DNA of 64,000 nucleotides from Litchfieldia sinesaloumensis (GTDB lineage: Bacteria; Bacillota; Bacilli; Bacillales; Bacillaceae_L): assembly GCF_900156865.1 (NCBI RefSeq), contig NZ_LT732529.1:3880001-3944000 (forward strand), given 5' to 3'. The position numbers and the translations under genes are program-made. Position 1 is the first letter of the stretch. Each line of letters begins with the position of its first letter. Below, one piece after another: positions 2,728 through 28,504 of the stretch. The notes under the pieces are model-generated. The model searched no databases. It had not been told where the DNA came from and worked only from the letters and a program-made list of their open reading frames with translations.

Positions 2728-2729
2728 AC

Positions 2730-3197
2730 ATGGAAGATATCATCAATCAACAAATTTTGTTTCGCTTTATGACATTAGATGATCTGGATGGTGTCATGAA
2801 GGTTGAGAAGTCAGCATTTACAATCCCATGGAAGAGGGAAGCTTTTTATAATGAGCTTGTTCATAATCAATTTGCAAAGTATATCGTAATGACCGATAAT
2901 GGCCAAGTAATCGGATATTGTGGCATGTGGCTTATTATGGACGAAGCCCACATTACCAATATTGCGGTATTACCGGAATATAGAGGCAGGAAGTTAGGGG
3001 AGGCCCTACTTATGCAGGCGAAATTGTTAGCCATGCAGCATCAGGCGTCTACAATGACCCTTGAGGTAAGAGTATCAAATCTTGTTGCACAAAATCTTTA
3101 TAAAAAGTTAGGATTTAAACCAGGTGGGATTCGAAAAAACTATTATACGGATAATAATGAAGATGCGTTAGTAATGTGGGTGAATTTTAATGAGTGA
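2730..3197 (+). CDS. rimI: Ribosomal protein S18 alanine N-acetyltransferase
   Basis: This GNAT-family acetyltransferase is predicted to acetylate the N-terminal alanine of ribosomal protein S18. The 155-residue protein contains [20 protein letters not shown], the acetyl-CoA pyrophosphate-binding motif A, then [19 protein letters not shown] and IRKNYY near the C-terminus, all RimI hallmarks. I start it at ATG 2730, after an AGAGGCAGGG ribosome site; an upstream in-frame TTG at 2703 lies inside tsaB. The substrate is inferred from homology and from the t6A gene context. Confidence 0.9.
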
Positions 3198-4206
3198 TAA
3201 TCAAATAATTATGGGAATTGAAACAAGCTGTGATGAAACGGCTGTATCAATAGTACGAAATGGAAGAGAGATTCTATCAAATGTAGTAGCATCTCAAATA
3301 GAAAGTCATAAACGTTTCGGAGGTGTAGTTCCAGAAATAGCATCAAGACACCATGTTGAGGCTATTACACTTGTGATTGAAGAAGCGTTGAGTAAGGCGG
3401 AGATGACGTTTGATGATATAGATGGAATTGCAGTAACTGAGGGTCCAGGATTAGTAGGAGCATTGCTAATTGGGGTCAATGCTGCAAAAGCAGTCGCATT
3501 TGCCCACGATATTCCCCTTCTAGGTGTTCATCATATTGCTGGTCATATTTATGCTAATCGATTGGTCAAAGAGCTAGAGTTTCCTTTATTGGCCTTAGTT
3601 GTTTCCGGAGGTCATACTGAGCTTGTTTATTTGGAAGAGCATGCCTCCTTTAAGGTGATTGGGGAGACAAGAGATGATGCTGCAGGTGAGGCTTATGATA
3701 AAGTGGCGAGAACACTAAACCTACCTTACCCAGGTGGTCCACATATTGATCGCCTTGCACATGAGGGGACGGCTACGATTGATTTACCAAGGGCATGGCT
3801 GGAAGAAGATTCATACGATTTTAGTTTTAGTGGATTAAAATCTGCTGTTATCAATACTCTTCATAATGCTGAGCAGCGAGGCGAAACAATTGATCCGAAA
3901 AACTTAGCCGCTAGTTTTCAAGAAAGTGTTATTGATGTGTTAGTAACCAAGACCGTTAAGGCTACTAGAGAATATAAGGTTAAACAAGTAGTACTAGCGG
4001 GTGGGGTTGCAGCTAATAAGGGGCTTAGAGAAGCACTAGAGAAATCATTTACGGAAATACCAGATGTCAACTTAATTATACCACCACTTTCGCTATGTAC
4101 GGATAATGCAGCTATGATTGCAGCGGTTGGAAGTGTATTGTTTGAAAAAGGAGCGCGTTCTTCTTATGCGCTTAATGCGAATCCAGGTTTAGATATTGAA
4201 TTATAA
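3190..4206 (+). CDS. tsaD: tRNA N6-adenosine threonylcarbamoyltransferase
   Basis: TsaD transfers the threonylcarbamoyl group from threonylcarbamoyl-AMP to A37 of tRNA. The 338-residue protein has the ASKHA signature [12 protein letters not shown] at residues 9-20, the metal ligands in HHIAGH near residues 114-119, VSGGHTELV, the GEAYDKVAR loop, LPYPGGP, and C-terminal [12 protein letters not shown] and LCTDNAAM. The start overlaps the rimI end by 8 nt. It is the last gene of the t6A run. The intergenic region after it carries a cluster of DnaA boxes. Confidence 0.97.
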
Positions 4207-4308
4207 TCAATATGGGTAAGTCACTTTGCATAAGCTTTTAATTACAAAATGTTGGTAAGCTAGTTCGCATAAAAAAACTTAGGTGATAAGGCTTACTTGA
4301 TAGTAGTA

Positions 4309-4337
4309 AAGTCCTCTTCTTGAATGAGGACTTTTTT
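4309..4337 (+). terminator. Terminator of the thiL-tsaD run
   Basis: AGTCCTC (4310-4316) pairs with GAGGACT (4326-4332), followed by a T run. It lies 100 nt after tsaD. Two imperfect direct repeats, GGTAAG...GCATAA, lie between 4213 and 4272; I assign them no function. Confidence 0.8.
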
Positions 4338-4346
4338 GTTGATAAA

Positions 4347-4587
4347 TAATCCACAATACTGTGGATATTGTGAGTAACTTATTTGAGTTCCCGAAATATA
4401 TACAATGTATGCGTGGACATTTTTTGTGGATAACTATGTTATAACTGTGGACACTGTGGATAATTTGGTGTATAACTTAATATTTTGTGGAAAAGGTGTA
4501 AAAAAAATCCCCATTTCACCTTTTGGTTTGATGGGGATATCTTAATTTGTGGATAGTCAATTAGTTTTAGTTCATTTGTTATCCACT
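4347..4587. promoter_or_regulatory. DnaA-box cluster downstream of tsaD
   Basis: The consensus box is TTATCCACA, or TGTGGATAA on the other strand. Exact copies lie at 4425-4433 and 4455-4463. One-mismatch copies lie at 4347-4355, 4360-4368, 4486-4494, 4548-4556 and 4579-4587. Seven boxes in 240 bp is far above chance. From memory, the B. subtilis tsaD (gcp) region is one of the few DnaA-box clusters outside oriC, so the cluster is probably conserved and may titrate DnaA. Confidence 0.75.
4500..4540 (-). terminator. Terminator of the ABC-F gene
   Basis: ATCCCCAT (4507-4514) pairs with ATGGGGAT (4531-4538). Read on the minus strand the stem is followed by seven U residues, as expected for the leftward gene ending at 4579. 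Confidence 0.8.
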
Positions 4588-6513
4588 GGTTTCATGGAGG
4601 GTTTCCCATTCTTCCATTAGTGCTTCAAGCTTTTCTGAGTTGGTTTCGTTCTCCTCATTAATACGTTGAACCTCTTCATGGTTTTGGTAGACCTCTGGGT
4701 CACATAACAACTGATCATTCTCTTCAATTTTTGCTTCAAGTGTTGAAATTTCGAGTTCGATCTCTTCAATTCTTCGTTTTCTTTGACGCTCTTTCTTTTT
4801 TATTTCCTTATCTTGTTCATAAGATGACTTTTCTTGGATTACTACACGTTTGTCGGGCATTTTCTCTTGAAGCTCAAGTCTCGCAAGTTCTTCCATTTCA
4901 AACTTCTTTTCAAGATAATAGTCGTAATCACCAAGGTATTCTGTAAGTCCATCTCTAGATAACTCAAATACTTTCGTTGCAATCCGATTAATAAAGTATC
5001 GGTCATGGGAAACAAAAAGGATAGTTCCTTGATAGTCAATTAGAGCATTCTCTAGGACTTCCTTGCTATCAAGGTCTAAGTGGTTAGTCGGTTCATCTAG
5101 AATAAGAAAGTTTGACTTTTCCATCATCAACTTAGCAAGGGCAAGCCTTGCCTTCTCACCGCCACTTAATGTAGAAACGATTTTTAACACATCGTCACCT
5201 GAAAATAGGAAATTCCCTAGAACGGTACGGATTTCTTTTTCCGGTTTAAGGGGATACTCATCCCATAATTCATTTAAAACTCGTTTATTTGAGTTTAAGT
5301 CTGCTTGTTGTTGATCATAGTAACCAATCGTTACATTTGATCCAAATCGTATCGTGCCATCAACATGTTCTAGTTTTTCGGTAATTGCTTTTAAAAGAGT
5401 TGACTTACCAATCCCGTTCGGTCCGACTAGTGCGATGCTGTCTTCACGATATATATTGAAATCAATGTTCTTAACAATTGGATGATCCTTTTCGTAGGAA
5501 ACCGAAATATCCCTTGCGCTTAGGACATCATTTCCACTTTGTCTTTCTATTTCAAATCGGAAAGAAGCTGATTTTTCATCACCTGAAGGTCTATCCATTA
5601 ACTCCATTCGTTCTAGTTGTTTACGTCTACTTTGAGCACGTTTAGTTGTAGATGCTCTTACAAGATTTTTGGCAATAAAATCCTTTAACTTTTCAACTTC
5701 ATCCTGTTGTTTTTCATACTGTTTGAGTTCCTGTTCATAGTTCTCAGCCTTTAATTTTAAGTAATTACTATAGTTTCCAACGTATCTTTTGCTTGTGTGT
5801 CTCGAAATTTCATATACTTGGTTGACGACCTTATCAAGGAAATAACGGTCATGGGACACAATTAATAGTGCACCTGGGTAACCTTGAAGGTATTGTTCAA
5901 GCCATGTGAGGGTGCTAATATCAAGATGGTTGGTTGGCTCGTCCAAGATTAATAAATCAGGCTTTGTAAGTAATAATTTACAAAGGGCGAGTCGTGTCTT
6001 TTGACCCCCACTTAAGCTAGATATTTTCGTTTGATAGTCATCTTCGGTAAAATTAAAACCATGTAAGATTGAACGTATATCAGCCTCATATTGATAACCG
6101 CCTTGTTCCTTGAAATCGACTTGAAGCTGATCATATTCCTCAAGCAATTTTTGATAGGAAGCTTGGTTTTCAAAAAGGGAGGGGTCACCCATTTTCACTT
6201 CAAGGGTTCTCAGGTGTTTTTCAAGCTTTTGTAGTGGTGCAAACACAGTTAGCATTTCTTCCCAGATAGTGAGAGTGGATTCAAGCCCTGTATCTTGTGC
6301 GAGGTAATCAATTGTCACACTTTTTGGCTTGATAATTTCACCGCCGTCATGAGACATCTGCCCAGATATTATTTTTAAAAGCGTTGACTTCCCAGCACCG
6401 TTACGGCCAACAATGGCAATACGATCACGGGTTTGTACTTCTAGTTTTATATTCGATAAAATAAGATCAGCAGCAAAGTATTTTTTGAGCTGATTTACTT
6501 GTAGTAAAATCAT
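4579..6513 (-). CDS. ydiF: ABC-F family ATP-binding protein, YdiF type
   Basis: ABC-F proteins have two ATP-binding cassettes and no membrane domain; they act on ribosomes, resolving stalls or protecting against antibiotics. The 644-residue protein has Walker A GRNGAGKST (about 36-44) and GPNGIGKST (about 365), signatures LSGGQ and LSGGE, and Walker B followed by DEPTNHLD in both halves. A charged interdomain linker lies at about 240-320, and a Lys/Glu-rich coiled coil fills about 560-640. The gene lies between tsaD and moaC, opposite to both, as ydiF does in B. subtilis. The sequence shows no sign of an acquired resistance subtype, so I treat it as a housekeeping translation factor. Confidence 0.9.
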   Translation of the reverse strand: MILLQVNQLKKYFAADLILSNIKLEVQTRDRIAIVGRNGAGKSTLLKIISGQMSHDGGEIIKPKSVTIDYLAQDTGLESTLTIWEEMLTVFAPLQKLEKHLRTLEVKMGDPSLFENQASYQKLLEEYDQLQVDFKEQGGYQYEADIRSILHGFNFTEDDYQTKISSLSGGQKTRLALCKLLLTKPDLLILDEPTNHLDISTLTWLEQYLQGYPGALLIVSHDRYFLDKVVNQVYEISRHTSKRYVGNYSNYLKLKAENYEQELKQYEKQQDEVEKLKDFIAKNLVRASTTKRAQSRRKQLERMELMDRPSGDEKSASFRFEIERQSGNDVLSARDISVSYEKDHPIVKNIDFNIYREDSIALVGPNGIGKSTLLKAITEKLEHVDGTIRFGSNVTIGYYDQQQADLNSNKRVLNELWDEYPLKPEKEIRTVLGNFLFSGDDVLKIVSTLSGGEKARLALAKLMMEKSNFLILDEPTNHLDLDSKEVLENALIDYQGTILFVSHDRYFINRIATKVFELSRDGLTEYLGDYDYYLEKKFEMEELARLELQEKMPDKRVVIQEKSSYEQDKEIKKKERQRKRRIEEIELEISTLEAKIEENDQLLCDPEVYQNHEEVQRINEENETNSEKLEALMEEWETLHETSG

Positions 6514-6635
6514 AGTATTTCACCTCTTGTTTCTATCATCAGTGTATCTCATATTATCGTTATAGAGCAACTGCAATGATATTGTTCACAGATGTAACAA
6601 AGACAGATATGTTAAAATAGTGTATAGTTTATGTG

Positions 6636-6785
6636 GATGTTCAAAAAGTCCGGTGAAAATGACACATCGAATTTCTACGTTGGCTTGCTTTTCCGTTGCT
6701 CACGTATTAACACCATACGTTCCGCTACTCAAAGCTTCGCCGCCTTGAACTTCTCGGTCCTTTTCATCCTCCTTTTTGAACTGCA
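6636..6785. repeat. Dispersed Bacillaceae-type intergenic repeat
   Basis: This segment of about 145 bp is closed by the inverted repeat GTTCAAAAAG (6640-6649) / CTTTTTGAAC (6772-6781). Inside are GC-richer stretches with partial palindromes. It has no coding frame and sits 20 bp before moaC. I recall similar segments scattered between genes in other Bacillaceae; that recollection cannot be tested here. It may place a hairpin in the moaC leader. Confidence 0.55.
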
Positions 6786-6803
6786 GTTTAGGGAGGGTTC
6801 GAT

Positions 6804-7295
6804 ATGACATCATTTACCCATTTTAATGAGCAGGGGCGGGCAAAGATGGTCGACATTACGGAAAAGTCAGACACTGTTCGTACCGCAATTGCTAAGACAA
6901 GTATTGTTGTTAATAAAATGATTTATGAGCAAATTGTAAATAATGAGGTTAGTAAGGGCGATGTTCTTGCTGTGTCACAGGTTGCAGGTATTATGGCAGC
7001 TAAAAAAACATCGGAGCTCATTCCGATGTGTCATCCATTGGCATTAAAGGGCGTTGATATTTCCTTTAGTTGGGCAGTTGGAGATGAATATGTTCTCCAT
7101 ATCTCTGTTTCAGTAAAAACGAAGGGTAGTACCGGTGTTGAAATGGAAGCACTTACGGCGGCCTCGGTTTGTGTGTTGACCGTATATGATATGTGTAAAG
7201 CAGTGGATAAAGGAATGGTTATTGGACCAACCTATTTAGAAGAAAAGACCGGTGGAAAAAACGGAGATTTTCATAGGGAATTGAAAGGCAAGTAG
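6804..7295 (+). CDS. moaC: Cyclic pyranopterin monophosphate synthase MoaC
   Basis: MoaC converts the 3',8-cyclo-GTP made by MoaA into cyclic pyranopterin monophosphate, the first stable intermediate of molybdenum cofactor synthesis. The 163-residue protein has the family motifs [16 protein letters not shown], the active-site [22 protein letters not shown] and [12 protein letters not shown] good ribosome site (AGGGAGGG) precedes ATG 6804. No other mo- gene is near, as in B. subtilis, where moaC (ydiG) also sits alone beside rex. Confidence 0.96.
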
Positions 7296-7308
7296 TGGGG
7301 GAATTAAC

Positions 7309-7950
7309 ATGAATCTAGAACAATCAAAAATACCACAAGCAACTGCCAAGAGGCTACCACTTTATTATCGCTTTTTGAAAAATTTGCATGCCTCAGGTAA
7401 ACAACGGGTGTCATCTGCAGAGTTGAGTGATGCTGTAAAGGTTGATTCAGCTACAATAAGGCGTGATTTTTCTTATTTTGGAGCATTAGGAAAAAAAGGG
7501 TATGGCTACAATGTCAATTATTTATTATCCTTTTTTAGTAAGACGCTTGATCAAGATGAGTTAACAAAAGTTGCACTTATTGGAGTGGGCAATCTAGGTA
7601 CAGCGTTTTTGCATTATAATTTTTCAAAAAATAATAATACAAAAATTGAGCTTGCGTTCGATGTGGATTATAATAAGGTAGGAAGTAGCATTGGTGGAGT
7701 TGAAGTACATCATTTAGATGATCTTGAAAAAGTATTGCCGGATGATGTTACTGTTGCAATTTTAACTGTTCCAGTTGGTGCTGCCCAAGGGATTACAGAT
7801 CGCTTAGTATCTAAAAGCATCAAAGGTATTTTAAATTTTACACCAGCCAGAATTAATGTACCTGAACATATTCGGGTTCATCATATTGATTTAGCTGTTG
7901 AATTACAAGCACTTGTTTATTTTTTAAAGCATTATTCGAACGAAGAATAG
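7309..7950 (+). CDS. rex: Redox-sensing transcriptional repressor Rex
   Basis: Rex represses fermentation and respiration genes when the NADH/NAD+ ratio is low; NADH binding releases it from DNA. The 213-residue protein has an N-terminal winged helix with [13 protein letters not shown] and [13 protein letters not shown], and a Rossmann domain with GVGNLGTAF near residues 93-101. It ends with the family's [10 protein letters not shown] and [13 protein letters not shown]. It starts 13 nt after moaC with a GGGGG ribosome site and is followed by the tat genes. Confidence 0.96.
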
Positions 7951-7982
7951 AATTCATTTTATATTTGTAGGAGGTGACCTAA

Positions 7983-8174
7983 ATGGGAAGTCTAGGATTC
8001 GGTAGTATCTTTTTAATCGTGGTGGCGGCATTATTAATTTTCGGACCAAAGAAGTTGCCTGAACTTGGAAAGGCAGCAGGTAACACATTACGTGAATTTA
8101 AAAACGCAACAAAGGGCTTAGCAGATGACGACGATGATGATGTTAAAAAGAAAGAAACTCAAGATGTGAAGTAA
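7983..8174 (+). CDS. tatA: Twin-arginine translocase subunit TatA
   Basis: TatA forms the pore-like component of the Tat pathway that exports folded proteins. The 63-residue protein has a short N-terminal membrane helix beginning GSLGFGSIFLI, the FGPKKLPELGKA hinge and amphipathic helix, then an acidic tail with a run of aspartates. A perfect AGGAGGTGA site lies 6 nt before the ATG. With tatC after 7 nt it forms a minimal TatAC pair, corresponding to tatAy-tatCy of B. subtilis. Confidence 0.95.
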   Translation: MGSLGFGSIFLIVVAALLIFGPKKLPELGKAAGNTLREFKNATKGLADDDDDDVKKKETQDVK

Positions 8175-8181
8175 TGATAGG

Positions 8182-8940
8182 ATGAGTCACATGAACCAAA
8201 ACGAAATGTCCATCTTTGATCATATCGGTGAGCTGCGAAAACGACTGATCTATGTAGTCGTTTTCTTCTTCATAGTTGCTTTAGGAAGCTTTTTCCTTGC
8301 TGAGCCAGTAATTCTATATCTGCAAAATGCTGAGGAAGCTAAAGAGCTAACAATGAATGCTTTCCGTATGACAGATCCAATTAAGATTTATATGCAATTT
8401 GCGTTTATTATAGCGCTCGTTATCTCATCTCCTTTTTTACTGTATCAGCTGTGGGCATTTATAAGTCCAGGCTTGTATGAGAAGGAAAGAAAGGTAACTC
8501 TTAGTTATATCCCGATATCGGTATTTTTGTTTTTACTAGGTGTCTCCTTTTCCTATTTTATTTTGTTTCCCTTTGTCGTGAATTTCATGACAAGATTGGC
8601 GGAACGATTAGATATTAATCAGGTGATAGGGATTAACGAGTATTTTCAATTCTTATTGCAGCTAACATTGCCGTTTGGATTTTTGTTTCAGTTGCCGGTT
8701 ATTGTGATGTTCTTAACAAGATTGGGGATTGTAACGCCAATGTTTCTTTCGAAAATACGAAAGTATGCGTATTTTATCCTTTTGGTTATTGGAGGATTAA
8801 TCACACCTCCTGAGTTAATCTCGCATCTGATGGTTACCGTTCCATTATTTGGACTTTACGAAATTAGTATTCTTGTATCCAGAAGTGCGTATAGGAAAGT
8901 ATTAAAAGCTGAAATGCTAGCGGCTAATAGTATGGAATAA
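8182..8940 (+). CDS. tatC: Twin-arginine translocase subunit TatC
   Basis: TatC is the polytopic membrane receptor for twin-arginine signal peptides. The 252-residue protein has six predicted membrane helices. Its N-terminal HIGELRKRL motif, PFLLYQLWAFISPGLYEKER in the first cytoplasmic loop, and C-terminal ITPPELISHLMVTVPLFGLYE are diagnostic. An alternative ATG at 8191 is possible. It closes the rex-tat run before a shared bidirectional terminator. Confidence 0.96.
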   Translation: MSHMNQNEMSIFDHIGELRKRLIYVVVFFFIVALGSFFLAEPVILYLQNAEEAKELTMNAFRMTDPIKIYMQFAFIIALVISSPFLLYQLWAFISPGLYEKERKVTLSYIPISVFLFLLGVSFSYFILFPFVVNFMTRLAERLDINQVIGINEYFQFLLQLTLPFGFLFQLPVIVMFLTRLGIVTPMFLSKIRKYAYFILLVIGGLITPPELISHLMVTVPLFGLYEISILVSRSAYRKVLKAEMLAANSME

Positions 8941-8948
8941 GGGAATAA

Positions 8949-8978
8949 AAAATAACCTCTATTTGAGGTTATTTTTTT
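8949..8978. terminator. Bidirectional terminator between tatC and ydiK
   Basis: AAATAACCTC pairs with GAGGTTATTT, with a T run on the right and an A run on the left. It serves rightward tatC and leftward ydiK. Confidence 0.85.
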
Positions 8979-9172
8979 GTGACTTTTTTTATTTTATTAT
9001 GTAGGGCAAACATCCTGATTGCCATACCAAAGTCGAAGGTTGCGAAAAGTGCCAAAAGAATTGTGGAAAAATTCCAAACTGTCTCCGTTGCAAATCCGAT
9101 CGCCAAATAAGTAAATAGAGTGCCCATTAACACGTAAATGATGCCCATCGCAAAAGGTGAAGTTCTTCGCAT
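8969..9172 (-). CDS. ydiK: Small membrane protein, YdiK-like
   Basis: This 67-residue protein has two predicted membrane helices separated by a short turn and ends in a lysine-rich tail. Function is unknown. The call rests on size, topology and conserved position: B. subtilis has ydiK between tatCy and ydiL. It lies 3 nt after the ydiL gene on the same strand, so the two are probably cotranscribed. Confidence 0.8.
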   Translation of the reverse strand: MRRTSPFAMGIIYVLMGTLFTYLAIGFATETVWNFSTILLALFATFDFGMAIRMFALHNKIKKVTKK

Positions 9173-9175
9173 AAA

Positions 9176-9913
9176 TTAAAAGCCTCCAATAAATGTCTGT
9201 TGCAGATTCTCAGCTTGCTTCATTATCCTTTCTATATCATCGGCAAAAATGGTCTGAACAGCTACTACAAAAGTATTCATCGCAACATGTGCGAATATTG
9301 GTACGATAATTCGTTTTGTTTGTACATAGAGGAATGCAAAGGTGAAGCCCATAGCTGTGTAAATTAAGATATGAGTGAAATCCATATGTACAACTGCAAA
9401 AATTAATGAACTTATTAATCCAGAGAGGAAAAAGTTTAGTTTTTTATATAATGAACCAAAAATAATTTGCCGAAAAATAATCTCTTCAAGGATTGGACCA
9501 ATAATCGATACGACAATCACAAGTAAAGGCAGAGATTTTACAAGGTTCATGATTTCTTGAGTATTCTCTGAACCTGGTTCAATTCCAAAAAGGTGAATTT
9601 CAATATTTGCAGCGAGAACCTGGGCAGTCATTGCCATAATCACACCAGCAAACGCCCAACCAACCGCTTCGCCTTTGGAGGAACGTTCAAGATTTCGATG
9701 CCTTTCCTTAATGTCCTGCCTTAATAAAAATAAAACAATAGGAAGAGCAGCAACAAAACTAATAACGGTCCAAGTTGCAATAATTGTATTTTTTGCTTTA
9801 TCCGGCTCTAAACCGTCCCCAATACCAAAATACAACAGTAACGGGATACCTAGAATACCGGAGAATTGCATAATTATATACGTTAATATGACATACCAAT
9901 ATCTAACTTTCAT
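9176..9913 (-). CDS. ydiL: CPBP family intramembrane glutamic endopeptidase, YdiL-like
   Basis: CPBP (Abi) proteins are membrane proteases related to eukaryotic CAAX-processing enzymes; bacterial substrates are mostly unknown. The 245-residue protein has about seven membrane segments and the three family motifs: EEIIFRQII with the catalytic glutamates near residue 145, the VHMDFTH histidine motif, and HVAMN near residue 210. It pairs with ydiK and faces away from groES, as in B. subtilis. Its start at 9913 has a GGAGAT ribosome site. Confidence 0.9.
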   Translation of the reverse strand: MKVRYWYVILTYIIMQFSGILGIPLLLYFGIGDGLEPDKAKNTIIATWTVISFVAALPIVLFLLRQDIKERHRNLERSSKGEAVGWAFAGVIMAMTAQVLAANIEIHLFGIEPGSENTQEIMNLVKSLPLLVIVVSIIGPILEEIIFRQIIFGSLYKKLNFFLSGLISSLIFAVVHMDFTHILIYTAMGFTFAFLYVQTKRIIVPIFAHVAMNTFVVAVQTIFADDIERIMKQAENLQQTFIGGF

Positions 9914-10189
9914 GTAGATCTCCTTTTAATATGTGGAATAATTTTTCACTTAATCAAATGCCTAGACATTAACCTTAGTGAGATAAAGTTAGCTTATTTG
10001 TCCACCTTTTGTATTGTAACATATATTCATACTTATCCATTAGTATAATGCAAATCCAAATTTTCATAGAAAGAAACAAAAAAATATCAGGGTGGAGGAT
10101 TATTTTTCCTATTTGTGCATACCATAGATAGGTGGAATACAGGCTTGTTCTAGAAATACATTTTTTTTGTAAATTTATTTATCAAATAC

Positions 10190-10221
10190 TTGCAAAAAAA
10201 GTATAGATTATTTAATATAAT
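10190..10221 (+). promoter_or_regulatory. groESL promoter region
   Basis: TTGCAA at 10190-10195 is a plausible -35. The -10 is either TATAAT at 10216-10221 (spacing 20) or the AT-rich hexamer at 10213-10218 (spacing 17). It lies just before the CIRCE operator, which would cover the transcription start. Confidence 0.55.
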
Positions 10222-10228
10222 AATTGTG

Positions 10229-10255
10229 TTAGCACTCAGGTCATATGAGTGCTAA
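10229..10255 (+). promoter_or_regulatory. CIRCE operator (HrcA-binding site)
   Basis: TTAGCACTC, nine bases, then GAGTGCTAA: a perfect match to the CIRCE inverted repeat. HrcA binding here represses groESL until heat shock diverts GroEL. This sequence also creates a spurious ATG upstream of groES. Confidence 0.97.
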
Positions 10256-10301
10256 TAAGAAAACGAAACTATATGTAAATTATCTGAGGAGGTTGTTTCA
10301 C

Positions 10302-10586
10302 TTGTTAAAGCCATTAGGTGATCGCGTTATTATTGAACTTGTTGAATCAGAAGAAAAAACTGCAAGCGGGATTGTATTACCAGATTCTGCGAAGGAAAAG
10401 CCTCAAGAAGGTAAAGTTGTTGCTGCAGGTACAGGCCGTGTACTAGACAGTGGCGAAAGAGTGGCTCTAGAGGTCGCAGTTGGTGATCGAATCATCTTCT
10501 CAAAATATGCTGGTACTGAAGTGAAATACGAAGGTACTGAATACTTAATCTTGCGTGAAAGCGACATTTTAGCTGTTATCGGATAA
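10302..10586 (+). CDS. groES: Co-chaperonin GroES
   Basis: GroES is the heptameric lid of the GroEL folding chamber. The 94-residue protein begins [15 protein letters not shown] and carries the mobile loop [18 protein letters not shown] and the C-terminal [19 protein letters not shown] place the start at TTG 10302, preceded by GAGGAGGT at 10286-10293, as in B. subtilis; a longer ATG frame from 10245 would begin inside CIRCE and add 19 unrelated residues. Confidence 0.97.
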
Positions 10587-10609
10587 TAGTAGCAGCTCAT
10601 ATAACATAG

Positions 10610-12273
<1,664 letters not shown>

Positions 12274-12385: not shown

Positions 12386-13552
12386 CTATAGGAGAAGGTC
12401 TTTCATCAGTTTGCTAAACTGTTGGGAGGCCTTTTCTTCCATATTGGCGGTCATATGAGCATAGATATTCATTGTCGTATTAATATCTGTATGTCCAAGC
12501 CGCTGTTGTATTTCTTTAATGCCAACTCCAGCTTCAATCAATAATGAAGTGTGGGTATGTCTAAATGAGTGTGGAGTAATGTTCTTTTCTATCTCTGCTT
12601 TTTTCAGAAGTCTTTTAAGCCGGGTCTCAACAACTTTTCTTAATTGTGGATGCCCATCCTCACGAGCAAAAATAAACTCGTTGTCTTGGTATATAGGTCT
12701 ATTTTTTAATTTAATTTCATTTTGTTTAAGCCGATGCTTCTTTAACATGCTGATAAGCATTTCATCAATCTTGATTGTACGGACAGAGCCTTTTGTTTTT
12801 GGCGTTAAAAGCTGATATTTTTCAAAATGATTGGTAGGGTTATAAAGAGTTTTAGTAACTCGGATAGTACCCTGCTTTTCGTTAAAATCCCCCCATTTTA
12901 GGGCCAATAATTCACCTATTCGTATTCCTGTATAGGAAAGTAACGTAAAGACAAGATGATCCATTTCAAGCCCGTCTGTATAGGCTAATTTTAGAAAATG
13001 GGCAAGCTCTTCTTTTTCAAGAAAAACAATATTCTCTTCTGCTTTCTCCAGTTCTTCAACACTCTGCAGCTTTTTAGGCATTTTGAATTCCTCAGTAGGA
13101 TTATTTTTTATCAGTCCTTGAGTCAATGCTTTCCGAAAAATCATTCTTCCGCAAGCATGAATACCATCCATATAATTTTGACTGTATTTTTCGTTTAATT
13201 CTAGAATCCTTTCTTCATACATTTTCTTAGTAATACGGTTGATTGGATAAGGCCCCCAAACAGAGGTAAAATGCTTCATTTCCTTTTCTCGAGCCCTCAC
13301 ACTGCTTATCTTCACACCACTGCGGCTATACGTTTTTAACCAATCCTGGGCGAATTGTTCAAACGGCATATCAGATTCTTTAATTAAGGTCCCATTATCT
13401 TTTGCAAGTTCCACAAGGCGAGCTGCTGCTTGTGCCTCCTTTTTTGTTTTAAATCCACCTTTTGAAATTTCCTTCCGCTTCTTGGTAAGTGGATCTATCC
13501 CTAAATAAATGTGATAGCTCCATGTCTTACCTCTTTGTTTGAATTTAGCCAT
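12386..13552 (-). CDS. int: Tyrosine recombinase (integrase) of element 1
   Basis: The 388-residue protein has an N-terminal AP2-like arm-binding domain (about 1-60), a core-binding helical domain (about 65-165) and a catalytic domain. Catalytic residues are visible: Arg in YTGIRIGELLAL, His/Arg in HSFRHTH, His in RLGHTD and the nucleophile Tyr in NIYAHM. It is read toward groEL and stops 113 bp from the attachment core, the usual layout of a Gram-positive phage, ICE or satellite integrase. Its C-terminal EKASQQFSKLM resembles the two integrase remnants near 28.8 and 45.05 kb, so all three probably recognise the groEL site. Confidence 0.95.
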   Translation of the reverse strand: MAKFKQRGKTWSYHIYLGIDPLTKKRKEISKGGFKTKKEAQAAARLVELAKDNGTLIKESDMPFEQFAQDWLKTYSRSGVKISSVRAREKEMKHFTSVWGPYPINRITKKMYEERILELNEKYSQNYMDGIHACGRMIFRKALTQGLIKNNPTEEFKMPKKLQSVEELEKAEENIVFLEKEELAHFLKLAYTDGLEMDHLVFTLLSYTGIRIGELLALKWGDFNEKQGTIRVTKTLYNPTNHFEKYQLLTPKTKGSVRTIKIDEMLISMLKKHRLKQNEIKLKNRPIYQDNEFIFAREDGHPQLRKVVETRLKRLLKKAEIEKNITPHSFRHTHTSLLIEAGVGIKEIQQRLGHTDINTTMNIYAHMTANMEEKASQQFSKLMKDLLL

Positions 13553-22279: not shown

Positions 22280-22870
22280 TTAGTTTAAGGCAATACTTTG
22301 GATTAGTTTTTGCTGGATATATAGCTGCTGTAATTCAGCCTTTTCGGCCATCAATAATTCTTTTCTTTTTTTAAGCTGAGCTATTTTTCCGATAATGATT
22401 TGCTTTTGAATAGGTGGTAAGTCAATTTCTAAATCCTTTAAATGAGATAGTTTCAATAGAGAAATCACTGTGCCTTCACTTAGAACAGACAGTTGCTTTT
22501 GAATGGATGGATGTTCATTAAAATACCATTCAAAAAAGGCTGGATCTGCATTACTTGTAAATTGAATTTTTATGAAGTTGTTTGTTAATAATAACCCGCT
22601 ATATTTCTGAGGTAACAAAGCAACTTTTTGTGTATGTGTGTGTAGAATAAGACTATTTGTGTCAGTTAGCAACTGTGGTACCAATTTTTCTTTTTGTACA
22701 GTAATTTCTATATTTTTTTCATTTGAAATTCGATAAGCTAAACCCAGCGTTTCATTAAATTCCTTTAATGAAAGTGGTTTAACCTTTAATGTTTCTACGT
22801 CAGAAGATAATGTTTCTAAACGATTTGTAAACGCACCTTGTGTAAATACAGCGATTTCATGGAGTTTCAT
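22280..22870 (-). CDS. Half-size HsdS-like protein (single recognition domain)
   Basis: The 196-residue protein resembles one half of a specificity subunit: a recognition-domain-like stretch (1-145) and an S-type spacer with LPPIQKQIIIGKIAQLKKRK (about 152-171) ending in a coiled coil. It precedes hsdM by 26 nt and is the first gene of the operon. It might pair with HsdM as a dimer of half-S proteins, or modulate the complex. It is not simply a truncated hsdS copy, since its sequence differs clearly from the neighbour. Confidence 0.75.
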   Translation of the reverse strand: MKLHEIAVFTQGAFTNRLETLSSDVETLKVKPLSLKEFNETLGLAYRISNEKNIEITVQKEKLVPQLLTDTNSLILHTHTQKVALLPQKYSGLLLTNNFIKIQFTSNADPAFFEWYFNEHPSIQKQLSVLSEGTVISLLKLSHLKDLEIDLPPIQKQIIIGKIAQLKKRKELLMAEKAELQQLYIQQKLIQSIALN

Positions 22871-23031: not shown

Positions 23032-25785
23032 TTATGCACCATACTTTTCAGTAAAGTCACGGATAAATGATGTAATAGCTTTTATTGCTTTGTTCTTTTT
23101 CAAGAATGAACCTGATAAAGAGTCCATAATCGTATTTTTTTCAATTAGACTGGAATACTCATAGGTTGATACTTGTTCACGTAATACACTATCTTCAATA
23201 TCTACTTCTTTTGCGAATGCTGAGAGTTCTTGCTCACTCATTTCTTCTTCGTAGCGATTGTATGCATCCATAACAGATTCATTAGGAGATAACGTTGGTG
23301 CGACCTTATCTAAGAACCCTTTTATCAACTCAATTTTCAGGCGTAACTTCGGATCAGATGCATGGTCTAATTCTTGTTTGATAAAACGAATCTCTTTGTT
23401 AAGTTCTTTTTCGTTTTCTATGTTAAGGCTCGCAATTAGGTTCAAAATGTAGCTGACATTTATCTTATCTGTATGCATTAGCTCTAACTCAAAGTCGATG
23501 TCATGTAAAATGGATTCTTTTGGTACTTCGCTACGTTTAAAGTCTTCGTATACCTTGAAGTACTTGCTCTTGAAATCTTCATAGGATTGCTGTGAAATCG
23601 TTAGCTCTGTCTCATCAAACTCAAAATCTGAAAATGACTGTAATCGTTGAAGGAATTTCGTCACATTTTTGAATGCAATAATAAATTGCCGCTTATCTTC
23701 CTCTCTCTCTAGCTCGTCTACTTCTTCAGGAATGACTGCAACATCTCGTAAATTTTTCACAGCTTGTTTGAATGCTTTTAAGTATTCATCGTAGCTTCCC
23801 ATAAGAACCGTATCAACATTGTCTGTTCTAGAGAATAATTTAATTGCATCATCTGTATTGTCTTTTAAATTTCGATAGCAAACGATATTTCCATATGGCT
23901 TAGTCGACTTCTCTACACGATTTGTACGGCTATATGCTTGCAACAAATCATGATAAACCATGTTCTTATCTACATAGAGTGTATTGAGTGGCTTGCTGTC
24001 AAATCCAGTTAAGAACATTTTTACGACAAGTAAAATATCGATTTGAGCATTTTTAACTTTTTTTGATACATCAGAAAAATAACGATCCCACGTTTCTGTC
24101 GAGAAGTCTGTGTCATACATTTCGTTATAATCTGCAATCATGCGGTCTAGTGCTTCCCGAGAATGTTCACCAGTACCATCGCTTTCCTCATTTTGCCCAT
24201 ATGAAAAAATTCCAGCGATCTTCAAATCATGATTCTTGGATTTAAAAATATCGTAATACTTAATTAACGTAGGAATGGAATCAACTGCGAACATAGCACA
24301 ATAGCCTTTGCTCTTTGAACGTCGTAAATGATTTCCGATTATATGGTCAGCTACTAAGTTTAAACGTCGTTCATCATGCCACACTTCATCTGTATCAATC
24401 GCTTCTACTTTTGTATCATCGGCTTCATCAATATTTGCGTTAAAAGTACGAATGTATTCTACTGAAAAACCAAGTACGTTCCCATCACGGATTGCATCTT
24501 TAATTAGGTAGTAATGCAAGCATTTATCAAAAAGGTCAGCAGTTGTACGTCCATCTTGACTTTTATTTTCGACAAAACGAGGTGTTCCTGTAAAACCAAA
24601 GTATTGAGCATTCTGAAAGTGACGATCAATCTCTTTTCGCATATCTCCAAATTGGCTGCGATGACATTCATCAATAATGAAAACGACCTTTTCTTGTTTG
24701 TATGGTTCCATAATTTGAGCGTACTTTGGATTTTTGATAGCATTGTTCATTTTTTGAATGGTTGTCACTATGAATCGTTTCAAGGGATTTTGTATTTGTT
24801 CAATAAGGATTTCGGTTTTGTCTGTTCGATCAACCGCTCCCTTCTGGAACTTGTTGAACTCTGCAATCGTTTGGCTGTCTAAGTCTTGGCGATCAACAAG
24901 GAAGAATACCTTTTTGATACTTTCCTCATCTGCTAAGATTTGACCAGCTTTAAAAGAGGTTAAGGTTTTACCAGAACCAGTTGTATGCCAAATATATCCA
25001 TTATTTTTAGTTTCAGTAGCTCGTTGTACCAATGCTTCAACTGCATAAACCTGATAAGGACGCATTACCATTAATGCTTTATCGGTATCATTAATCACCA
25101 TATAACGACTAATCATTTTCGCAAGATGGCATGGTTTTAAGAATGAACTACTGAAACTTTGCAAGTTTGTAATAAGTTCATTTCTTTCATCTGACCAGAA
25201 GAATGTAAATCCAAATTGAATGTCATAATCAGAGTTCGAAAAATATTTTGTATCGACACCATTACTTATTACAAAAATTTGAAGGAAACGATATAAACCT
25301 GGAAATGTATGACGACGATAGCGTTGGATTTGGTTAAATGCTTCTTTAAAGTCTAATCCTCTTCTTTTTAATTCTATTTGAACCAGTGGTAAACCATTAA
25401 TTAGAATAGTGACGTCATAACGATTTGTGTATTTACCAGTCACAGTAGTTTGTGTTGTAACTTGAAAAAGATTTTTACACCAATCTTTTGTGTTTAGCAA
25501 TTCAACATATAATTGCGTTCCATCCTCACGTTCAATTAGTAGCTTATCACGTAAGATTTTTGCGGACTCGTATATGCTTTTGCCTTCAATTAATGTAAGA
25601 ATTCTCTTAAATTCTGTATCTGATAAGGGCTGTCCATTTAGTTTATGTTCATTAAATAAATTAAGTTGTTCCTTAAAATTGGCTAATAGTGCTTCATAGT
25701 CCGTAATCTTAACAGCTTTGTATCCTTGACCTACAAGTTGTTTATGTATTTTTTTCTCAAGTTCTGCTTCAGGTTGGTATGCCAT
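23032..25785 (-). CDS. hsdR: Type I restriction endonuclease/translocase subunit HsdR
   Basis: HsdR translocates DNA with ATP and cuts at a distance from the unmethylated site. The 917-residue protein has the N-terminal PD-(D/E)xK nuclease (VQIELKRRG near residue 137), Walker A HTTGSGKT near 270, the DECH box in VFIIDECHRSQFGDMRKE near 372, FGFTGTPRF and the second RecA-like domain with VVKMFLTGFDSKPLNTLYVDK. The C-terminal third is helical. The gene has its own terminator and is separated from half-S/hsdM/hsdS by the palindromic control region, so nuclease and methylase can be expressed separately. Confidence 0.96.
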   Translation of the reverse strand: MAYQPEAELEKKIHKQLVGQGYKAVKITDYEALLANFKEQLNLFNEHKLNGQPLSDTEFKRILTLIEGKSIYESAKILRDKLLIEREDGTQLYVELLNTKDWCKNLFQVTTQTTVTGKYTNRYDVTILINGLPLVQIELKRRGLDFKEAFNQIQRYRRHTFPGLYRFLQIFVISNGVDTKYFSNSDYDIQFGFTFFWSDERNELITNLQSFSSSFLKPCHLAKMISRYMVINDTDKALMVMRPYQVYAVEALVQRATETKNNGYIWHTTGSGKTLTSFKAGQILADEESIKKVFFLVDRQDLDSQTIAEFNKFQKGAVDRTDKTEILIEQIQNPLKRFIVTTIQKMNNAIKNPKYAQIMEPYKQEKVVFIIDECHRSQFGDMRKEIDRHFQNAQYFGFTGTPRFVENKSQDGRTTADLFDKCLHYYLIKDAIRDGNVLGFSVEYIRTFNANIDEADDTKVEAIDTDEVWHDERRLNLVADHIIGNHLRRSKSKGYCAMFAVDSIPTLIKYYDIFKSKNHDLKIAGIFSYGQNEESDGTGEHSREALDRMIADYNEMYDTDFSTETWDRYFSDVSKKVKNAQIDILLVVKMFLTGFDSKPLNTLYVDKNMVYHDLLQAYSRTNRVEKSTKPYGNIVCYRNLKDNTDDAIKLFSRTDNVDTVLMGSYDEYLKAFKQAVKNLRDVAVIPEEVDELEREEDKRQFIIAFKNVTKFLQRLQSFSDFEFDETELTISQQSYEDFKSKYFKVYEDFKRSEVPKESILHDIDFELELMHTDKINVSYILNLIASLNIENEKELNKEIRFIKQELDHASDPKLRLKIELIKGFLDKVAPTLSPNESVMDAYNRYEEEMSEQELSAFAKEVDIEDSVLREQVSTYEYSSLIEKNTIMDSLSGSFLKKNKAIKAITSFIRDFTEKYGA

Positions 25786-25981
25786 GCTGAAAAACCCCCT
25801 TAACTCCAGCTTTTTCTTATTATATAAAAAATTAAAGTATAAGTTTCATTTTTGATAGTAATTTAAAGAATGGTTTGTTGGTTAATTGACCACTAAAATA
25901 AAAATTTCTATTTCCTTTGGTATGTATTATACCTTAAAATGGATTTAGGTGAAAAAATAACCAATTATAGGGGGAGAGACT

Positions 25982-26287
25982 ATGAAAAAGGAAGTCTTAG
26001 TTTTAGGAGTTAAGAAATATGATTTTATAACAGAAGATGGAGAAAAGGTACAGGGTACGAGGGTATATTTTTATGACGAGGAGGGCGATGAAAGCAGTAA
26101 GGAAAAGGTAAAAGGGTACATACCTACAAAACGCTGGTTTCCTGGATTTGAGAAATTCGAACAGTTCCAAAGCAATAACTTACCAGGAAAATATGAAATG
26201 GAATATGATATCCGCATCTCAGAAAAAGGGCTTAATTTAGTTATTAAAGGATTTACTTACGTAGGTAGTGCTGAACCAATTGCTTAA
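25982..26287 (+). CDS. Unknown 101-residue beta-rich protein beside the RT locus
   Basis: The protein is rich in beta-strand-like alternation (KKEVLVLGVKKYDF, GTRVYFYDEEG, YEMEYDIRIS, LNLVIKGFTYVG), which suggests a small OB-like or single-strand-DNA-binding fold such as those on rolling-circle plasmids. That is a resemblance, not an identification. A GGGGGAGAG ribosome site lies before the ATG. It ends only 3 bp before the promoter of the structured RNA locus, on the same strand as the reverse transcriptase, and may be part of the same module. Confidence 0.6.
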   Translation: MKKEVLVLGVKKYDFITEDGEKVQGTRVYFYDEEGDESSKEKVKGYIPTKRWFPGFEKFEQFQSNNLPGKYEMEYDIRISEKGLNLVIKGFTYVGSAEPIA

Positions 26288-26290
26288 TAA

Positions 26291-26319
26291 TTGAAAAAAT
26301 TAATAAGTATTAATATAAT
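26291..26319 (+). promoter_or_regulatory. Strong sigma-A-type promoter of the RNA-RT locus
   Basis: TTGAAA at 26291-26296, a 17-bp spacer and a perfect TATAAT at 26314-26319. Transcription should start near 26326, 300 nt before the reverse transcriptase gene. Confidence 0.8.
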
Positions 26320-26460
26320 AGATATAAGTGAGCTTGCAACATAAGGTTGAAAGCCAATAGATTATTCTATTGTCCCCTATCGGGGTCACTAGTTTCAGTA
26401 ATCGCTTATAATATACTTATAGGTGAAATATATACTGAAACGAATATGGAGGCTACAATA

Positions 26461-26508
26461 ATGGAACTAATTATTAAACTAATCATTGACATTGTTTTGC
26501 CTCTCTAA
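26461..26508 (+). CDS. 15-codon hydrophobic ORF inside the structured RNA
   Basis: ATG at 26461 has a near-ideal GGAGG site 7 nt upstream and encodes MELIIKLIIDIVLPL before TAA. The peptide is almost wholly hydrophobic with one Lys and one Asp. It could be a toxic or leader peptide, a translation-coupled attenuator for the RT gene, or a chance frame. The quality of the ribosome site argues against chance. Confidence 0.5.
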   Translation: MELIIKLIIDIVLPL

Positions 26509-26563
26509 GACATTGTGTCTTACAGTAGAAACTTAACTCTTATAGAGTAGCAGTTTGATCTTT

Positions 26564-26609
26564 CCTTCTCTCCTAACACTGCAATAATTGAGGAGAGGGG
26601 GCTTTTTTT
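26564..26609 (+). terminator. Terminator between the structured RNA and the RT gene
   Basis: CCTTCTCTCCT (26564-26574) pairs with AGGAGAGGGGG (26591-26601), then C and seven T residues. The RT gene begins 16 nt later, so it must be read by readthrough or antitermination. Confidence 0.85.
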
Positions 26610-26624
26610 ATGGGGTGAGAAACT

Positions 26625-28064
26625 TTGGATGGGGAATATGATTATAAACTAAAGGAAATTGCTACAGAAGTAAATATTAAACGAATTTTTCGAGAATATG
26701 AGGAAAGCAAGAAGGATAATTTTTATGATCCACCAAAAATTAGAATCCAAATAGGAACCGATGGTGTTGATCATGTGTTATTTAGAAAGAATTTAGATAT
26801 TAATTGCATTAATATTTCTAGGCGGATTAAATCAGGTAATTATTTTTTTAAGCCTTTTCGTGAAATACATATTCCGAAAGGAAACGGTCAGTACAGAACA
26901 ATTTCTATTGCATCTATTAGTGACATATTAGTCCAAAAACTTATACATGAATGTATCTATCCCTATGCAGAAACTATGTTTCGGGAATTACATAATACAA
27001 GTTTCGCCTATAGGAAAGGAATTTCTGCACCTCAGGCTGCAAAACAGGTTTATAAATACATAAAAAGTGGCTACAGTTATGTTTTTGATGCAGATATTAG
27101 TAAATTCTTTGATACTATTCCACATGATAACCTCAAGGAGAAATTATTTGATTTTTGTGGTGAGGAAAATAAATTAATTTATACCTATTTGAAACGTTTT
27201 ATTTCGGTAGATCGAGTGCTACCTGAGACATATATATACCATAAAGAAAAAGAAAAGATATTTAAACGAAAAAAACCGAAAAGAATAAAGAGGAAGGCTG
27301 GAATACCTCAAGGTGGAGTCTTTTCAGGTTTGATAGCAAACATTTATATGCATGAATTTGATAAATGGATTATAGGGCTAAAGGAAAAATATGACCTTAA
27401 ATATATAAGATATGCTGATGATTTCTTAGTACTTTATAAAGATAAGAATATTGAAGAAAAGATTAAAAATGAAATTAGCTGTATGATAGAAAAATTAGGA
27501 TTAAATCTTAACTGGGATAAAACAAAGACAATTGATTTAACAAAAAAAGGGAACTATGTTAATTTTGTAGGGTTTTCCATATCACAAACTGGTATACGTA
27601 TAAAGAAAGAAAACATGAACAAATTTAAACAAAAAGTACTTGAAGTAATAAAAAAAAACCATATTTCTAATTATGAAGAAAAGGATTTAAAAAGGTTAAT
27701 ATCTAAATTGAAATTTAAATTGCTAGGGAATGAGGCTTTAGGGTTAAGTAAGTGCAATAAATGTAATTTATTTGAACCTAAAAGAAGTTGGTTGAGTTAT
27801 TTTTCCATTTTAACAGATGTTCAGCAATTAAGAGAATTAGACGCCTGGATTCGTAAACAGTTATATGTATGGCATTATAATCAATCGGGAAATCGCTTAA
27901 GTCTAAAAAAAATTAGAGAATTTGGCCATATACGCCTTGAAGATATTTATAGAAGGATTAAAAAGGAAGAGAAGCTAGAGATAGAATATTGTAAATGTAG
28001 CCCATTAGAGGCAAAGAGGAGTAGAGAATATCTTTTTCATATATTAATTTTTCATGAATCCTAA
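26625..28064 (+). CDS. Free-standing group II intron-like reverse transcriptase
   Basis: The 479-residue protein has the RT core: LHNTSFAYRKG, motif A VFDADISKFFD at residues 153-163, AGIPQGGVFSGLIANIY (about 225-241) and the catalytic YADD at residues 263-266. After the core, SWLSYFSILTDVQQLRELDA and WIRKQL resemble the maturase (X/thumb) region of group II intron proteins, with an inserted CNKC and a later CKC that could bind metal. No endonuclease domain follows. TTG 26625 has a GGGGTGAG site. I found no group II domain V or intron ends, so it is not an intron protein in place. Beside a type I restriction system, an antiphage role is likely but unproven. Confidence 0.85.
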   Translation: MDGEYDYKLKEIATEVNIKRIFREYEESKKDNFYDPPKIRIQIGTDGVDHVLFRKNLDINCINISRRIKSGNYFFKPFREIHIPKGNGQYRTISIASISDILVQKLIHECIYPYAETMFRELHNTSFAYRKGISAPQAAKQVYKYIKSGYSYVFDADISKFFDTIPHDNLKEKLFDFCGEENKLIYTYLKRFISVDRVLPETYIYHKEKEKIFKRKKPKRIKRKAGIPQGGVFSGLIANIYMHEFDKWIIGLKEKYDLKYIRYADDFLVLYKDKNIEEKIKNEISCMIEKLGLNLNWDKTKTIDLTKKGNYVNFVGFSISQTGIRIKKENMNKFKQKVLEVIKKNHISNYEEKDLKRLISKLKFKLLGNEALGLSKCNKCNLFEPKRSWLSYFSILTDVQQLRELDAWIRKQLYVWHYNQSGNRLSLKKIREFGHIRLEDIYRRIKKEEKLEIEYCKCSPLEAKRSREYLFHILIFHES

Positions 28065-28482
28065 AAATTATGAGGAGTAAAAATGCAATGTTGGTAGGAA
28101 GAGACCCAAAATGGATTTAAAAGTAGCGTGTTGGAGTGTTACACCGGGCTCGATCCTTTCTTTTTTACCTGGATTCTTTTATGGTTAAGGGATTGAATTT
28201 ACTCTATTTCTTGCTTCTGACATAAATTTTATCTGATTGTATGCAGAAGGAAAAAGGTCCATGTATCATAAGTAGGTATGAACCTTAGTAAGAATAACTG
28301 CAAATGAGAAAAAAGCCAACCTCAAATTAAGATGGGCTTTATACATTTATAGCATATAAATTTGTCCTCTGGTTTGTCCTCCGATGTTTTATATCATATT
28401 TAAAATATTTATGTTGTTTTTTTAAAAAATGTAGATTTAAAGCCTTCTTTATGCATTATTTCTTTCTATTATTTATGAAAAT
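28065..28482. other. Gap between the RT gene and the right end of element 1
   Basis: No gene is visible. A hairpin at about 28312-28341 (AAAGCC/GGCTTT) followed by U residues on the minus strand looks like a terminator. The TTGTCCTC pair at 28362-28369 and 28374-28381 mirrors the left-end pair and is probably the right arm site of the integrase. Confidence 0.6.
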
Positions 28483-28504
28483 GAATGGGCGGCATGATGT
28501 AATA
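28483..28504 (+). other. Attachment core at the element 1 / element 2 junction
   Basis: These 22 bp are identical to the core at the groEL end (12252-12273). They form the right end of element 1 and the left end of the second unit. Upstream the sequence differs from groEL, as expected for attR. Confidence 0.85.

Follow-up and report, generated by a model that had tools for sequence, protein, structure and literature searches.

A reverse transcriptase and its upstream RNA in Litchfieldia sinesaloumensis carry a predicted sense-strand gene-assembly signature resembling that of DRT2

As far as PMC12039810 and PMC11100668 describe it, the reverse transcriptase (RT) system DRT2 copies a template flanked by ACA into concatemeric complementary DNA, which reunites a -10 and a -35 box at 17 bp and creates a stop-free toxic open reading frame (ORF). 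Two further systems are characterized in PMC12632851, in outline: in DRT9 (UG28) a poly-uridine tract serves as template for deoxyadenylate homopolymers, and DRT10 (UG17) uses a short A-B-A' template. DRT2 is the sole system given as assembling a gene in the DRT1-DRT9 table of a 2026 review (PMC13213688), and no second one besides it was found in the open literature searched. Here we analyze a 64,000-nucleotide stretch of the Litchfieldia sinesaloumensis genome (NZ_LT732529.1, positions 3,880,001 to 3,944,000; hereafter the window), in which a structured noncoding RNA of about 285 nt (26326..26609) precedes an RT gene (26625..28064); both lie on the + strand, as do all features below unless stated otherwise. 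An initial annotation, made from the sequence alone, had suggested an antiphage system based on reverse transcription. The analysis supports this suggestion, and we consider it probable that the RNA and the RT form a two-part antiphage system working like the DRT2 gene assembler, on the sense strand and with a different RT. The system is proposed, on sequence grounds, to be DRT2-like in its working yet not a DRT2.

The correspondence with the DRT2/neo system of Klebsiella pneumoniae begins with the layout, an RT with an upstream RNA of about 280 nt in the published descriptions (PMC12039810, PMC11100668), and extends to the elements inside the RNA. The proposed template of 102 nt, or 34 codons (26392..26493), begins with repeat A (GTTT, 26392..26395), its 5' boundary, which lies in the 5' arm of the -10 hairpin; directly 3' of the template follows A' (GTTT, 26494..26497), the proposed re-annealing site, in register with A and exactly 102 nt from it. 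In the accounts of DRT2 this flanking direct repeat is ACA (PMC12039810, PMC11100668). Within the template, TATAAT (26407..26412), the proposed -10 box of a junction promoter, is followed by a ribosome-binding site and start codon (26448..26463; GGAGG 26448-26452, ATG 26461-26463) and by TTGACA (26486..26491), the proposed -35 box. TATAAT before TTGAC means that the promoter boxes stand in the wrong order; across a head-to-tail junction the -35 box would lie 17 bp before the -10 box of the next repeat. The ATG opens a linear small ORF (sORF) of 15 codons, MELIIKLIIDIVLPL (26461..26508), which ends at a TAA in the genome, and the concatenated template is open in one sense frame with the predicted repeat protein MELIIKLIIDIVSVIAYNILIGEIYTETNMEATI (hydropathy 1.11). 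A -35/-10 pair at 17 bp across the junction, a ribosome-binding site with ATG, a stop-free frame divisible by three and a hydrophobic bias are all likewise reported for DRT2 in what these sources set out (PMC12039810, PMC11100668).

The same arrangement was found in seven Bacillota loci, namely the window, L010, L016, L109, L017, L019 and L022. The RNA itself is alignable across four related Bacilli (L010, L016, L109 and L017). In all seven RNAs a TATAAT hairpin (TATGAT in L010) is followed by a Shine-Dalgarno sequence with ATG and then by TTGAC, and in all seven the two boxes come to exactly 17 bp across the head-to-tail junction. At this spacer the repeat lengths are 102 nt in the window, 81 nt in L010, 93 nt in L016, L109 and L017, 75 nt in L019 and 84 nt in L022, each divisible by three, and the frame of the start codon runs stop-free through the junction in every case. 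Each template has a single open sense frame, and an antisense frame is open in two of the six loci listed. The distances from TATAAT to ATG (54, 45, 45, 45, 45, 48 and 51) are also multiples of three and open in 7/7 loci, which deserves attention because an ordinary leader needs no frame before its start codon. The two copies of the direct repeat fall within the 17-bp spacer at a distance of exactly one repeat length; the 5' arm of the TATAAT hairpin contains or adjoins the first copy, and the copies vary jointly: GTTT/GTTT in the window and the L010 group, TGTTCC/TGTTCC in L019 and GTTC/GTTC in L022. Five loci, each representing one repeat length, were tested for register, and in all of them the longest repeat run within ±9 registers was at register 0. 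The TATAAT hairpin has z-scores of -2.3 to -5.7 against shuffles in the window (-5.69), L010, L016, L017, L019, L022 and L020. Conservation of the RNA with the RT had been named beforehand as a test of the initial annotation, and the alignable RNAs together with the layout and signature shared by 7/7 Bacillota loci bear it out. Two features separate these loci from DRT2 as it is presented in the sources. The repeat ORF and promoter of the window run in the sense of the RNA, whereas neo is antisense (PMC12039810, PMC11100668), and the repeats measure 75-102 nt in the Bacillota loci versus 111-129 nt in 42 DRT2 orthologues (PMC12039810).

When all features were required, none of 400 dinucleotide shuffles reached the observed score in any of the seven loci. 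Among 1158 half-kilobase-scale segments of the 64-kb region, five score at least 10 and one at least 11, the latter being the finding itself. A score of 10 in the concatemer scan is also reached at two other + strand sites of the window, 6989 and 58349, both of them away from the RT and probably due to chance. In 150 kb of Bacillota family loci, with the window included, six sites score at least 11 and all of them are these RNAs; of the five further sites with a score of 10, two are the L010 RNA and another register of the L017 RNA, and three are unrelated. The 660 kb of 74 other loci gave one site of at least 11 and nine of at least 10, and in the 73 kb of six other family loci no site scores 10. 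The product of the per-locus probabilities over the five repeat lengths is ~10^-12.6, a figure that is descriptive only.

Several points weigh against this interpretation. The score rule was defined after the pattern had been seen, and L109, although it came to light later, is closely related to L016, which makes it a weak independent test. With all features required, none of the six other distinct family loci (L002, L003, L020, L021, L023 and L111, with its near copy L112) carries the signature; L002, L003, L020, L021 and L023 were covered by a sense-strand scan and a both-strand direct-repeat scan, and L111 as well as all six whole non-fitting loci were searched on both strands. Two mutually exclusive partial solutions exist in L020: AGGTTT/AGGTTT, 63 nt apart and open, without a -35 box, and TATAAT/TTGTCA with a spacer of 16 and a repeat of 78 nt, also open, without the flanking repeat. 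The seven fitting loci correspond to about four or five lineages, among which the non-fitting L111 falls in the tree, grouping weakly with the window, L019 and L022; with L111 inside this grouping, the seven need not form a single clade. In the window, the 4-nt A/A' run is weak alone (P 0.08), and the excess of hydrophobicity is modest, with z of 2.5 in the window and 0.6 in L022. Finally, purifying selection on the template codons was sought in three pairs and not found. The substitutions numbered one synonymous and four nonsynonymous for L016/L017, zero and one for L016/L109, and one and five for L109/L017. As the few template substitutions among close relatives are mostly amino-acid-changing, the support for coding rests on the frame, not on purifying selection. 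Apart from these points, L023 offers a weak solution (TATGAT/TTGATA, spacer 18, 144 nt) if the flanking repeat is not required.

The structured upstream RNA described in the initial annotation is borne out by folding: positions 26326-26612 form a row of hairpins at -81.8 kcal/mol (z -4.65), and none of 200 shuffles was equally stable. The stem of the final hairpin is CCTTCTCTCCT/AGGAGAGGGGG with a 16-nt loop, and a terminator-like run of seven T (26603..26609) follows it. Of the terminator described earlier, the hairpin and the T run are present; the terminator scan gave no site, with the limit that it accepts loops of 3-8 nt only, and the hairpin also resembles a pseudoknot stem. On sequence grounds it looks as though the terminator-like hairpin doubles as one stem of a predicted 3' H-type pseudoknot (26550..26601), in which GCAGT (26550-26554) would pair with ACTGC (26578-26582) and CCTTCTCTCCT (26564-26574) with AGGAGAGGGGG (26591-26601). 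A pseudoknotted RNA is also among the features given for DRT2 in PMC12039810. An Rfam search of 26200-28400 up to an E-value of 1 gave no family match, and across the whole window only tRNA and the TPP riboswitch were found at gathering scores.

The layout of this pseudoknot, a hairpin near the RT start whose loop is complementary to bases just upstream of the hairpin, recurs with differing stem sequences: GCAGT/ACTGC in the window, GGCGGT/ACCGYC in the L010 group, TGAGCAA/TTGCTCA in L022, CAACAGG/CCTGTTG in L020 and GTAGAGGA/TTCTCTGT in Nostoc. In a first scan of 13 loci, the window (5/200 shuffles as high), L010, L016, L109, L017 and L020 beat at least 195 of 200 shuffles. With a stricter layout and ten loci, at most 6 of 300 shuffles were as high in nine, including the window (0/300). 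Overall, the predicted 3' pseudoknot is above chance in nine of 13 loci. The evidence on the other side should be set beside this count. In the first scan L021 and L002 were borderline or weak (15 and 12 of 200 shuffles as high), and L022, L019, L111, L003 and L023 did not exceed chance (33, 58, 113, 63 and 57 of 200). The stricter layout was fixed after the first scan, left out L111, L003 and L023, and used an L022 stretch shifted 45 nt upstream; the L019 pseudoknot was no better than chance even so (168/300). L021 and L002 are near-identical cyanobacterial RNAs located about 400 nt upstream of the RT, with the same pseudoknot layout and no detected promoter-plus-frame signature, and their product may differ from that of the Bacillota RNAs.

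The RT has 479 aa, a TTG start 15 nt past the T run, the YADD motif at residues 263-266 and a CxxC...CxC motif near its C terminus. The earlier description of a free-standing group II-like RT with YADD, without an endonuclease match and with a maturase-like region holds: RVT_1 was matched with an E-value of 2.4e-31 and no further Pfam family was listed, and the GIIM maturase domain stayed under its cut-off (14.5 versus 23 bits). Residues C377, C380, C456 and C458 are invariant in a six-row Bacillota alignment (A8). The PADLOC models rank as a generic RT model (187 bits), RT_UG17 (164), Drt9 (135), a Cas1 model and Drt2 (PDLC03757, 117). UG17 is the best UG/DRT model for four family proteins by model scores alone (139-170 bits), and a search of 129 genomes with this model gave no match, nor did it in 14 controls, which makes this search uninformative. 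Cut-offs were not reached for the NCBIfam Drt2 model NF041746 (110.5 versus 390 bits), the group II maturase model TIGR04416 (210 versus 300) or the best retron model, St85 (88.5 versus 235). In contrast to DRT2, the window RT is below the Drt2 cut-off of NCBIfam, scores lower on the PADLOC Drt2 model than on RT_UG17 and carries CxxC...CxC. An AlphaFold model of the RT (mean predicted local distance difference test score 85.6) was compared by Foldseek, in which the GsI-IIC group II RT (6ar1_A, E 2.9e-20) ranked first by E-value and DRT9 (9vma_A, E 9.2e-20) second; G2L4 (9d4s_A) gave E 6.5e-15 and DRT2 stood at rank 9. The locus resembles DRT9 also in combining an RT with a noncoding RNA, but no poly-uridine tract was seen by eye in the window template. 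Likeness to the group II intron RTs and G2L4 RT lies in the overall fold and the TIGR04416 score. However, this RT is below the TIGR04416 and GIIM cut-offs, and Rfam detected no group II intron RNA at the window locus or at six relatives. A group II intron setting had been stated in advance as the finding that would count against the proposal; no group II intron RNA was found around the RT.

The placement of the RT on a tree, called for by the initial annotation, was achieved in part. At least 13 family rows (window, L010, L016, L017, L109, L019, L022, L111, L020, L021, L002, L003 and L023) fall on one side of a branch with an SH-like approximate likelihood ratio test value of 92, set apart from 36 other fetched RT rows, in a quick tree whose comparison rows were not individually classified and included no true UG17, DRT2 or DRT9 rows. 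By identity the RT of L111 is the closest to that of the window (43-44%), and by tree path the nearest is L019, which fits the signature. RT homologues occurred in at least 2/398 genomes of the class and at least 1/398 of the phylum (both including the genome of the window), at least 3/200 genomes of one family (that genome not included) and at least 5/397 genomes of the order (included), two of them outside the clade; these counts are lower bounds with cut-offs varying between searches. L104 and L105 (G1161 and G1342) passed the E-value cut-off of the order search yet fall outside the clade. Left out before the counts were L112 as a near copy of L111, L018, whose contig matches in length that of G336, the source of L010, and G1317/L110, whose contig matches that of L019 in length; the Bacillota count of seven excludes the phage contigs L111 and L112. 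With the window RT as query, the genome-contig search gave no homologue, and the viral-contig searches (window RT and alignments A2, A3, A4, A5, A8 and A12) gave one useful pair, L111/L112. No match was obtained by blastn of the L016 RNA against plasmids or of the window RNA against phages, and tblastn of three other RTs against plasmids recovered nothing beyond the copies of Nostoc and Thioflavicoccus and one additional Nostoc RT. In the region 4565-4860 of L111, which precedes the RT, about 30 nt recur as their reverse complement about 260 nt on, and an sORF with Shine-Dalgarno sequence and ATG and a TATAAT hairpin lie between the inverted copies, a layout unlike that of the Bacillota RNAs (all by eye).

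Defense genes neighbor the RT in several, not all, relatives, and include Gabija, Qat, ABC-three-component, type I restriction-modification (R-M) and BREX genes. L016 adjoins GajA/GajB of Gabija, and L109 adjoins ORFs that are near-identical by eye; the RT of L017 follows a QatC gene and that of L019 follows ABC-three-component genes. L003, from Thioflavicoccus, is near brxL and a PglZ gene, and L002, on a Nostoc plasmid, places the RT within a type I R-M locus (2424-11984) in the order HsdR, RT, DarT family, S, hypothetical and methyltransferase. An RT near hsdR is common to L002 and the window. In the phage contigs L111 and L112 the RT comes after an integrase-like ORF (by eye). The setting of L010, after flagellar genes, is not a defense one, and no defense gene was recognized by eye around L020 and L021. 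In L010, a group I intron (RF00028, 92.9 bits, 7665-8028) overlaps the end of a flagellin-like ORF, and flagellin-like C-terminal codons follow it by eye, so that the intron may interrupt a flagellin gene. L022, a Clostridia metagenome-assembled genome, has a second RT (1484-2500, RVT_1 E 1.8e-21), retron-like by eye, 3.4 kb upstream of the family RT, with an HNH gene between the two. Apart from the close pair L016/L109, the family RTs share no immediately adjacent partner gene, and this suggests a system made up of RNA and RT. It is from the neighborhoods of several relatives, together with the DRT2-like signature, that the antiphage role is inferred.

A conserved sORF with Shine-Dalgarno sequence and ATG, followed in the window by a terminator-like hairpin, would also be expected if the upstream RNA were an ordinary regulatory leader of the RT gene, acting by attenuation through a leader peptide and a terminator or hidden ribosome site; in L010, L016 and L017 the last hairpin in fact overlaps the ribosome site of the RT. 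Such a leader, however, predicts no frame before the sORF start, no inverted order of boxes coming to 17 bp and no A/A' pair, all of which are present in 7/7 Bacillota loci, and we regard it as an unlikely full account, although leader and template roles could coexist. A further alternative relates the system to DRT10 or telomerase: the RT would take a short A-B-A' unit as its template, such as the 12-nt period AACTAAT-TATTA-AACTAAT within the sORF, and the DNA repeat itself would be the effector. In its favor, UG17, which is DRT10 with its A-B-A' template in the account of PMC12632851, is the top UG/DRT model in PADLOC at the 164 bits given above, the RNA lies upstream and an A...A' direct repeat is the proposed re-annealing device; inspection by eye of the first four RNAs compared moreover showed a direct-repeat period of 12 nt. 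That period is nonetheless accounted for by codons of hydrophobic peptides (LLMQLLID, ELIIKLIID) and is not visible by eye in the sORFs of L019 and L022. SLATT was not listed among the ten neighboring proteins scanned from seven loci, a set that does not cover every neighbor. The long template of the window, with its coding and promoter signature, differs from DRT10, and a short repeat leaves the 17-bp spacing, the divisibility by three and the placing of A and A' one template length apart unexplained, which makes this explanation quite improbable in our judgment.

The RNA might instead serve as template for another DNA product, such as a homopolymer, untemplated DNA or single-copy msDNA, and the signature might be a by-product of an AT-rich, structured RNA. 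The low G+C content of the region (0.341 for the carrying element), the six family members without the full signature and the same pseudoknot layout in 3/3 cyanobacterial loci (two of them near copies), despite their lack of the full signature, are in line with such a product. Against this stands the fact that the combination of features almost never arises in the shuffled or real-DNA controls, and we give this explanation very little weight.

Under the gene-assembly proposal, the RT would bind the RNA at its 3' pseudoknot and copy the 102-nt template from 26493 to 26392. Once repeat A (GTTT) had been copied, the DNA end would unpair, re-pair with A' and restart copying, which would yield DNA of head-to-tail 102-nt repeats with the predicted junction TTGACATT/GTTTCAG. 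Every junction of the double-stranded concatemer would then bear a TTGACA-17-TATAAT promoter, which is absent from the genome because the boxes there are in the wrong order. Transcripts would bear GGAGG-8-ATG and the stop-free frame (MELIIKLIIDIVSVIAYNILIGEIYTETNMEATI)n, and the hydrophobic repeat protein would halt growth of the infected cell. The elements, their spacing, the frame, the conservation in Bacillota and the statistics come from sequence analysis; we infer RNA expression, RT binding, reverse transcription, second-strand synthesis, transcription, toxicity, phage trigger and defense.

The RNA is preceded by its own promoter, TTGAAA-17-TATAAT (26291..26319), just as the initial annotation had it, with 11 of 12 consensus matches and a fitting position relative to the RNA. 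It ranks at the top of the 13 promoter-like sites in 25700-28500, a number that is not enriched compared to the shuffle mean of 14.4. RNA and RT sit at the right end of a mobile element of about 16.2 kb, bounded by perfect 22-bp direct repeats. The left, attachment-site-like copy (12252..12273) lies at the end of a groEL-like ORF, and the right copy (28483..28504) matches it perfectly. The tyrosine integrase of the element (12386..13552, - strand; PF00589, E 7.4e-31) and the repeat pair confirm the satellite-like element described earlier, which also encodes a DnaG-zinc-ribbon gene and a DUF927 gene. The restriction system said to adjoin the RT proved to be a type I R-M system with HsdR at 23032-25785 and an S-domain ORF at 22280-22870; for the M and S genes at 19.5-22.3 kb the assignment was by eye only. 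Between hsdR and the RNA, an ORF of 101 aa (25982-26287) weakly matches phrog_4994 and the final part of a SinI restriction enzyme model. No ORF of at least 80 aa occurs between the RT and position 29336 of the window.

Gene assembly by reverse transcription may even have two origins, the second in an RT lineage separate from that of DRT2 and using the opposite strand. Since a concatemer transcript would have the same sense as the template and would again contain the template, A and A', the product could serve the RT as a new template and the response could amplify itself; we advance this combined extension as a tentative and rather doubtful one. If the proposal is true, these loci would provide compact Gram-positive systems for testing gene assembly, and they offer a search rule for others, namely promoter boxes in the wrong order, a frame across the junction and a flanking repeat. 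Hidden genes that are seen only after reverse transcription would then be a recurring invention, found in a second lineage whose RT and strand differ and whose repeats are shorter.

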